Source: Blattabacterium sp. (Cryptocercus kyebangensis)
Lineage (GTDB): Bacteria; Bacteroidota; Bacteroidia; Flavobacteriales; Blattabacteriaceae
Assembly (NCBI RefSeq): GCF_003226855.1
Contig: NZ_CP029820.1
Coordinates: forward strand, 62,001 to 126,000
Direction: 5' to 3'
Length of the DNA stretch: 64,000 nucleotides
Positions 60,142-62,979 of the stretch are shown one piece after another (the stretch's first letter is position 1; each line of letters starts with the position of its first letter). A model generated the notes under the pieces. It saw only the letters and a list, made by a program, of their open reading frames with translations. It had not been told where the DNA came from and searched no databases. Made by a program: the position numbers and the translations under genes.

Positions 60142-62979
60142 TTAAATAAATAAAATATTTATTATTTTATATTGAATAATAATTACTTTTTGTAATACTT
60201 TTTCTTTTAAAAAGAATATAGTTTTAGGATGATTTAAAATTTTGTATTTTATTTTTTCTACTGTTAGATTTGAGTCAAAAATCTCTTTAAATTTTAATTT
60301 CCCATTAAACATAATTGGATATGTAATTTTTTTTTCTACAAGAAATTTTGGATTAAAAATAGGTATAGGTGAAAATAAAATAGATTTTTTACCTCCTAGT
60401 TTTTTCCAAATTTCCTCAGATATATGAGGAGAAAAGGGAGCCATTAATTTAACTAGAGGTTCCAATATTTTTCTTTTATTACATTTTAAAATAGTTAATT
60501 TATTAACCATCATCATCAAATAACTAATAGATGTATTAAAAGAAAAGGATTCTATTCTTTCCTTTAATTTTTTGATTGTGTAATGCAAAATTTTCAATTC
60601 CTTAAATGTTGGAGATAAATCACTAATTTGAAATAATCCATTTTTATGGAATAAACGCCAAAATTTATTTATAAATTTTTTTATTCCATTTATTTTTTGA
60701 TCATTCCAAGGTTTAGATAGTGTAATTGGACCTAAAAACATTTCGTAAATACGAAAAACATCTGATCCATATTTATCAGAAATATGATCTGGATTTATAA
60801 TATTGTATTTAGATTTGGACATTTTTTCTAATTTTCTTTTACAAAAGAAAATTCCTTTTTCTAAAAGAAATTTGGAATTTGAAAATTCAGGGTTCCATTG
60901 TTTCAATTTATTTATATTTAATTGGTTATTATGATTGATTAGAGAAATATCTACATATATTTCTTGAAATGATAAACCATCCTTATTTTTCAATAATCCA
61001 TAGGAAACAAATATATTTTTTCCAATAATTTTTAATATAATAGCAGAATGAATAAGTATCATCCCTTGATTTAATATTTTATTAAAAGGTTCTTCTTTTT
61101 TTATCCATCCTCTATCTTTAAGAAATTTATGCCAAAATCTTGCATAAATTAAATGCCCTGTAGAATGTTCAGAACCCCCGATATATAGATCTATATTCTT
61201 CCAATAATTTTCTTTTTTATTGTCCAAAAAAAATTTTTTATTATGAACATCCATATAACGAAGAAAATACCAACTGGATCCAGCCCAACAAGGCATTGTA
61301 CTAGTTTCTATTGGAAATACATATTTATTATCAATAAGAGTATTTGAAACTATTTTCATATTTTTTTCGTCCCAAGCCCAATTTTTTACTCTCATTAATG
61401 GAGATTTTCCGTCTTTTGGATGATAATTTTTTATTCTTGGCAAAAGAAGAGGAAGTTTTTCCATTGGAATAGTTTTAGGTATTTTATTTTTAAAATAAAT
61501 TGGAATGGGTTCTCCCCAGTACCTCTGTCTAGAAAAAACAGCGTCTAGTAACCGATAACTGTTTTTTTTTATTCCAATGTTTTTATTTTTCAAAATTTGG
61601 ATTATTTTTTCCCTGGCTTCTTTTTCTTTTAATCCATTTAAAAAATAAGAATTAATGCAAATTCCATTTTTTCCTTCATAAAGTTCATCTTTATTATTTT
61701 TAGTTTTTTCAATAAAAACTGGTAAAATTTCTAATCCAAATTTTTTTGCAAATTTTAGGCTATCTTTTTCATGACTAGGTATACCTACTATAGATTTTGT
61801 TTGAGGATCTACAGAAAAATAATTACTAACATAAATAGGAATTTTTTTACCATTAATAAATGGATGTAGAACATAGTTTCCTGTAAAAAAACCTGAAATA
61901 TTTTTTTCTTTTTCTGATTCTTCTACATAATTTTCTTGTTTATTCAAATATTCAATAAGATTTTTTTTATGATAAGGAATAGTAATTTTTTCTAATAATG
62001 GATGATCTGTAGATACAATAATAAAGGTCATTCCAAATACAATTTCTGGACGAAAAATAAAAGATTCTATTTTTTTATCATTTTTATTATTAGAGAAAAG
62101 AAGTTCTAAAAATATGGTAGCCCCTGTTTTTTTACCAATCCAATTATATTGTAGTTTCTTAAGAGAATTAGAACATTTAATAAGATCTAGCCCTTTTAAA
62201 AGTCTTTCTACGTAAGCGGTAATTCTTATATGCCATTGAAGCATTTTCTTCTTATAAATTGGATATCCACCTCTTTGACTTTTTCCATTTTTTATTTCAT
62301 CATTAGCTAATACAGTCCCTAGATCCGGGCACCAATTAACCGTATTTTTACATAAAAATGCCAATCGGTAATTTAAAAGAATCGAATCTTTTTTTAGAGA
62401 ACTAAATTTTTTCCATTTTTTTGAATCAAATTTATAGTTAAAGGGAGTACTAGCATTAACAGATAAATTTCCGTTTTTATTAAATTCTTTAATTAAAAAG
62501 TTTATAGGCTTAGCTTTTTCACTATCTTTATCGTACCAAGAATTAAAAATTTGAATAAACATCCATTGAGTCCAACGATAATAATCTGGGTTACTGGTGC
62601 ATAATTTACGACTCCAATCGAAAGACAGACCTATTTTATCCATCTGTTTTTGATATTTTTGTATATTTTTTCTAGTAGTTTCGTAAGGATGCTGTCCAGT
62701 TTGAATGGCATATTGTTCTGCAGGAAGGCCAAAAGAATCAAATCCTATAGGATTTAGGACGTTATAACCTTCTGCACGTTTATATCGTGCATAAATATCG
62801 GATGCTATATATCCTAAACAATGTCCTATATGAAGACCGGCTCCGGAAGGATAAGGAAACATATTTAAAATATAGTATTTTTTTTTTGTGTAATTCTCGT
62901 TTTCTTCTGTATGAAAAATATTGTTTTTTTTCCAATATATTTGCCAACGTTTTTCTAATTTTCGAAAATTATATTCCAT
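60142..62979 (-). CDS. leuS: Leucyl-tRNA synthetase with eroded editing motifs
   Basis: LeuRS charges tRNA-Leu. The 945-aa protein has the HIGH motif (LHIGHCLGY, residues 49-57), the catalytic WAGSSWYFLRYMD near 565, and KMSKS at 719-723, so aminoacylation looks intact. The CP1 editing domain is present in size but its hallmark segments are changed. The threonine-rich TTRPDT-type motif reads FRPEIV (309-314), and the GTGAVM(A)VP...HD region is TKSIVGIPSHEKD (394-406). This suggests weak or absent proofreading. The gene is divergent from mgtE and 169 nt upstream of gdhA on the same strand. Confidence 0.94.
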   Translation of the reverse strand: MEYNFRKLEKRWQIYWKKNNIFHTEENENYTKKKYYILNMFPYPSGAGLHIGHCLGYIASDIYARYKRAEGYNVLNPIGFDSFGLPAEQYAIQTGQHPYETTRKNIQKYQKQMDKIGLSFDWSRKLCTSNPDYYRWTQWMFIQIFNSWYDKDSEKAKPINFLIKEFNKNGNLSVNASTPFNYKFDSKKWKKFSSLKKDSILLNYRLAFLCKNTVNWCPDLGTVLANDEIKNGKSQRGGYPIYKKKMLQWHIRITAYVERLLKGLDLIKCSNSLKKLQYNWIGKKTGATIFLELLFSNNKNDKKIESFIFRPEIVFGMTFIIVSTDHPLLEKITIPYHKKNLIEYLNKQENYVEESEKEKNISGFFTGNYVLHPFINGKKIPIYVSNYFSVDPQTKSIVGIPSHEKDSLKFAKKFGLEILPVFIEKTKNNKDELYEGKNGICINSYFLNGLKEKEAREKIIQILKNKNIGIKKNSYRLLDAVFSRQRYWGEPIPIYFKNKIPKTIPMEKLPLLLPRIKNYHPKDGKSPLMRVKNWAWDEKNMKIVSNTLIDNKYVFPIETSTMPCWAGSSWYFLRYMDVHNKKFFLDNKKENYWKNIDLYIGGSEHSTGHLIYARFWHKFLKDRGWIKKEEPFNKILNQGMILIHSAIILKIIGKNIFVSYGLLKNKDGLSFQEIYVDISLINHNNQLNINKLKQWNPEFSNSKFLLEKGIFFCKRKLEKMSKSKYNIINPDHISDKYGSDVFRIYEMFLGPITLSKPWNDQKINGIKKFINKFWRLFHKNGLFQISDLSPTFKELKILHYTIKKLKERIESFSFNTSISYLMMMVNKLTILKCNKRKILEPLVKLMAPFSPHISEEIWKKLGGKKSILFSPIPIFNPKFLVEKKITYPIMFNGKLKFKEIFDSNLTVEKIKYKILNHPKTIFFLKEKVLQKVIIIQYKIINILFI

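Follow-up and report, generated by a model that had tools for sequence, protein, structure and literature searches.

Apparent loss of leucyl-tRNA synthetase proofreading across the genus Blattabacterium, with the CP1 domain retained

Our analysis of the window, i.e., the whole stretch of 64,000 nucleotides from Blattabacterium sp. (Cryptocercus kyebangensis), points to an active leucyl-tRNA synthetase (LeuRS) whose CP1 domain would no longer deacylate mischarged tRNA-Leu; we put at roughly 90% the probability of this reading, in which the loss is ancestral and genus-wide and the domain is retained as a scaffold. We infer both the catalytic inactivity of CP1 and its scaffold role from sequence comparisons. 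In the mechanism that we propose, T247, T248, D345, and the GTG loop (E. coli numbering is used unless otherwise indicated), whose role would be to hold the mischarged aminoacyl ester in place and hydrolyse it, would have disappeared in the common ancestor of Blattabacterium through relaxed selection during intracellular life, and CP1 would have been kept as a built-in scaffold for fold, tRNA handling, and core orientation. The lineage would have lost proofreading selectively, LeuRS being one of the enzymes affected. Editing loss in host-restricted bacteria is already published, and the Blattabacterium LeuRS is a further, well-resolved case; what deserves further attention is that the combination of losses is selective and shared by the whole genus.

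The leuS gene (Table 1) codes for a protein that scores 754.8 bits against TIGR00396 (leuS_bact), above the curated cut-off of 548.4, with an anticodon-binding domain recognised by PF08264 (60.3 bits). It is the only full-length LeuRS match in the genome, a reduced, host-restricted one of 637,356 bases in two contigs. LHIGH and KMSKS are both read in the translation, which bears out the preliminary description of an intact synthetic site as far as these two motifs are concerned.

Table 1. Position of the leuS gene, its synthetic-site motifs, and its CP1 editing-site lesions in the window.
Feature	Position	Strand	Basis
leuS, leucyl-tRNA synthetase, 945 aa, single copy	60142..62979	-	ORF; TIGR00396
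Intact HIGH motif (synthetic site), residues 50-53	62821..62832	-	translation; alignment
IFRPEI in place of the threonine-rich motif TTRPDT, residues 308-313 (E. coli 247-252)	62041..62058	-	alignments
CP1 editing domain (residues 279-463) with its fold preserved and its editing site apparently lost	61591..62145	-	PF13603; alignments
QTKSIVGIPSHEKDS in place of the GTGAVMAVPGHDQRD motif, residues 393-407 (E. coli 331-345), with S407 at the position of the catalytic D345	61759..61803	-	alignments
KMSKS motif, intact, residues 719-723	60811..60825	-	translation

Loss of the proofreading motifs had been proposed for positions 61744-62058, which correspond to residues 308-412 of the LeuRS ORF. The threonine-rich motif has indeed lost its three threonines (it reads I247 F248 R249 P250 E251 I252), with the correction that the change of D251 to E is conservative and that R249 and P250 are kept. 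The second motif is lost as well (Q331 T332 K333 S334 I335 V336 G337 I338 P339 S340 H341 E342 K343 D344 S345), and the changes across both motifs comprise T247I, T248F, D251E, T252I, G331Q, G333K, M336V, and D345S. The aspartate of “HEKD” is not the catalytic one: it sits at position 344, which is variable in the genus, and position 345 is S. A phmmer alignment to the Thermus LeuRS (1h3n), independent of our first alignment, runs gap-free through both motifs in an identical register.

With T247, T248, T252, and D345 all lost (now I, F, I, and S), no known route to hydrolysis by CP1 is left. The single change D345A inactivates editing in the E. coli LeuRS and makes the enzyme error-prone (PMC4932531), the counterpart of Asp345 is essential in several other LeuRS (PMC3834818), and the respective roles assigned to the two residues are promotion of catalysis for Asp345 and protection of the correct product for Thr252 (PMC9023258). 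A site devoid of T252 that had kept its activity would be predicted to attack Leu-tRNA-Leu. The E. coli D345A enzyme (PMC4932531) and the Blattabacterium LeuRS both lack the catalytic Asp in a folded CP1, but the former is an engineered single change, whereas many site residues are gone in the latter. The fold of the window CP1 is recognised over its full length by PF13603, a sequence-profile test (132.7 bits, profile positions 2-184 of 185), and the domain, of about 200 aa, is undeleted. It differs in this from the LeuRS of Mycoplasma mobile, in which no CP1 is known. AlphaFold predictions for CP1 and for the whole protein, run with six sequences, had pLDDT values of 49 and 36, too poor to show the pocket or the fold.

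We compared 37 Blattabacterium LeuRS with those of 20 free-living Flavobacteriales, an alignment that the preliminary description had proposed as a check. TTRPDT and D345 are present in 20/20 of the free-living relatives, and the loss is found in all 37 Blattabacterium: position 345 is S in 33, C in 4, and D in none, and D251 is kept in none, E being found in 37/37. T248 and G331 each persist in 1/37, T252 in four lineages (L006-L009), and T247 in seven, the residual T252 and T247 indicating that the site is not uniformly scrambled. One could argue that editing is kept by equivalent residues at shifted positions, or that the loss is an artefact of alignment or sequencing. We rejected this explanation, which we hold to be extremely improbable: the 37 genomes are concordant, the two alignment methods give one register, and we found no evidence in its support. 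Shifted but conserved residues, which the preliminary description named as a possible refutation, were looked for in the CP1 of the genus by sequence (not structural) alignment, and none was found; the only conserved threonine columns are 257 and 305, neither of them catalytic, and no conserved aspartate column was found anywhere in CP1 among the 37 sequences, which excludes a shifted catalytic aspartate. Together with the full-length profile match, this agrees with the idea of a domain retained yet apparently inactive.

We scored the columns in which at least 95% of the free-living relatives share one residue, and considered them kept when found in at least 90% of Blattabacterium. Under this rule, 70/85 columns are kept in the catalytic core and 27/31 in the anticodon domain, for only 11/42 in CP1, where the survivors are mostly prolines, glycines, and phenylalanines; the lesions fall in the motifs that contact the ligand, and 97-100% of Blattabacterium retain P250, F254, G255, P312, P339, F348, S384, and G409. 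The CP1-to-core divergence ratio is about 2.15 in Blattabacterium vs. about 1.47 in free-living relatives, and dN/dS between close pairs is about 0.2-0.7 in CP1 and 0.1-0.36 in the core. Weak purifying selection, then, still acts on CP1, which argues for its persistence as a scaffold; the domain would be constrained for something other than proofreading, a scaffold role being the simplest reading. Several replacements are conserved in the genus (E251, S262, F326, I338, and S345), and the editing site is thus not simply drifting. These residues might even suggest that CP1 was repurposed, with E251, S262, F326, and S345 forming a new site, either for some other ligand or with a different hydrolytic chemistry, all the more so as seven CP1 columns have moved to a new residue fixed in more than 90% of the genus and position 345 is always S or C. 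Against such a new site, the surrounding positions 248, 249, 330, 331, 333, and 344 vary freely, the swaps are conservative (D to E, V to I, A to S or G) and fit packing or helix capping, and CP1 evolves relative to the core at about 2.1x in the genus vs. about 1.5x in the free-living relatives. We give repurposing very little credit and favour a retained scaffold.

A more serious alternative is that post-transfer editing was lost and fidelity was saved by a more selective synthetic site, leaving little mistranslation. In our alignment, the differences D39N, P54C, and Y80F (window numbering), fixed in the genus near HIGH, could be seen in this light; D39N and P54C are found in 37/37 Blattabacterium LeuRS, at positions where the free-living relatives nearly always have D and P. 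On the other side, we saw no change in the MFPYPSG motif or at the synthetic-pocket positions Y499, Y527, H533, and H537 that were aligned, and the L570 position, linked to specificity, is L in 36/37 Blattabacterium. A precedent exists in human mitochondria, whose LeuRS combines a degenerate CP1 with a stricter site of activation (PMC4267643), and a review indicates that higher specificity can accompany editing loss (PMC11415595). As summarised in PMC4267643 from Lue and Kelley 2005, the mitochondrial enzyme keeps a defunct CP1, as Blattabacterium would; its synthetic site is the stricter one, whereas the positions checked in Blattabacterium suggest no such change. We consider this compensation possible but unlikely, and an enzyme with an intact synthetic site and an inactive CP1 scaffold remains our preferred reading.

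Norvaline is a product of LeuABCD keto-acid chain elongation, for which leuA is required. We did not find leuA in the window genome, in its nearest relatives G007 and G035, or in G025, a distant lineage that probably lost it separately; the supply of norvaline in the window genome is therefore probably low or limited. The missing leuA is in line with a report that the Blattabacterium of Cryptocercus and Mastotermes have lost the synthesis of branched-chain amino acids (PMC9603385). In E. coli carrying the D345A LeuRS, norvaline reached about 9% under microaerobic conditions, norvaline being costly mainly then, and no isoleucine misincorporation was seen in vivo (PMC4932531). Of the two amino acids that the earlier prediction named as misincorporated, only norvaline is thus plausible, and even this in part, given the absence of leuA. 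Loss of leuA was also considered as the cause of the editing loss, and rejected: leuA is present in 11 of the 15 Blattabacterium sampled, all 15 being without the LeuRS editing motif, and G072 has no leuA and keeps the motif.

LeuRS is not the only synthetase concerned, as shown by the other editing sites, several of which the preliminary description had suggested checking. ThrRS is 403-445 aa long and devoid of its editing domain in 13/13 Blattabacterium genomes; in the window genome (L147, G000:C1:459000-462500, outside the window), the entire N-terminal editing domain is missing, and the sole SAD domain belongs to AlaRS. Family members with smaller genomes retain the ThrRS editing domain. 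In PheT, E334 (E. coli numbering) is replaced in 13/13 genomes, by G in the window genome, where the B3/4 domain is kept; this domain decays further in some Blattabacterium lineages. The PheRS beta chain of the window genome (L091, G000:C1:45000-48500, outside the window) has about 708 aa vs. about 820 in free-living relatives, and another domain may be missing from it. DTD was not found in the same 13 genomes. The editing motifs of IleRS, ValRS, and AlaRS are intact in nearly all Blattabacterium sampled, the small exceptions including a D to N change in the ValRS HD motif of G028 and Thr to Ser changes in the motifs of two enzymes, ValRS of G007 and IleRS of G020. No trans-editing CP1-type domain was found in the window genome beyond one match, which is ValRS itself. 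At the sequence level, proofreading has certainly been lost in LeuRS and ThrRS, and E334G has probably inactivated editing in PheRS. We would give even odds to a broader proposal: the ancestor would have lost three of the six main cis-proofreading activities (LeuRS, ThrRS, and PheRS) together with DTD, those of IleRS, ValRS, and AlaRS being kept under selection; the lineage would have been error-prone at Leu, Thr, and Phe codons since its origin, beyond the two-enzyme limit suggested by Mycoplasma, and the order of losses would be predictable across reduced genomes.

At the scale of the family, the full LeuRS motif is kept in a 1.3-Mb relative (G076) and in the 340-kb genus g20, and most of it in g21 and G090 (309,299 bp). 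It is degenerate, with different lesions in each, in Karelsulcia, g24, g25, and g26; in g24 (about 190 kb, L076-L084), a shortened CP1 of about 140-150 aa has no recognisable motifs. All parts of the family, g24 included, largely preserve the IleRS motif, and most members preserve the ValRS motif, of which g24 keeps most. A simple genome-size rule for LeuRS editing loss is ruled out by the g20 genomes, which have the full motif at 340 kb. In the LeuRS-core tree, Blattabacterium form one clade (support of 100) with Karelsulcia, g24, and g25 as sister group (97) and g20 outside, and at least two changes of editing-motif state are needed. D345S, D342E, and A334S are common to Blattabacterium and Karelsulcia, and g25 keeps D345; a single early loss of function and parallel losses are both possible histories.

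Reviews state that most host-restricted bacteria lack editing in many synthetases (PMC10057733, PMC11020763). The editing-defective synthetases of Melnikov et al. 2018 (PNAS), as presented in reviews (PMC10057733, PMC7373986, PMC11020763), share with our case a reduced genome, a kept synthetic site, lost editing, and intact free-living relatives; unlike that set, Blattabacterium is resolved across a genus and a family, with Leu, Thr, and probably Phe editing lost and Ile, Val, and Ala editing kept. The same three enzymes are affected in Mycoplasma, where, according to PMC7373986, losses are known for LeuRS, ThrRS, and PheRS and no Mycoplasma is known with all three, whereas we infer the three together in Blattabacterium. 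Mistranslation at Leu and Phe codons was measured in Mycoplasma by Li et al. 2011, as related in PMC7373986 and PMC4014445. Among the papers searched, none joined Blattabacterium with translational fidelity. That the Leu/Thr/Phe trio has also been reported lost in mycoplasmas suggests a rule and not random decay. The family forms a natural series in which to ask what proofreading cells can spare, as smaller-genome relatives keep the LeuRS and ThrRS motifs and genomes of about 190 kb keep the IleRS motif and most of the ValRS motif; moreover, the clade of the window genome lost leucine synthesis, and related species can be used to test norvaline supply against the cost of editing loss.

We also observed that another LeuRS of the genus (L004, G007:C2:119322-122147) changes frame at residues ~468-494, where the conserved DAVFSRQRYWGEPIP reads KKIVIDYEMPFFPDRGTGVNLFQF with the ORF remaining open; two compensating indels, sequencing errors, or slippage are the probable cause.
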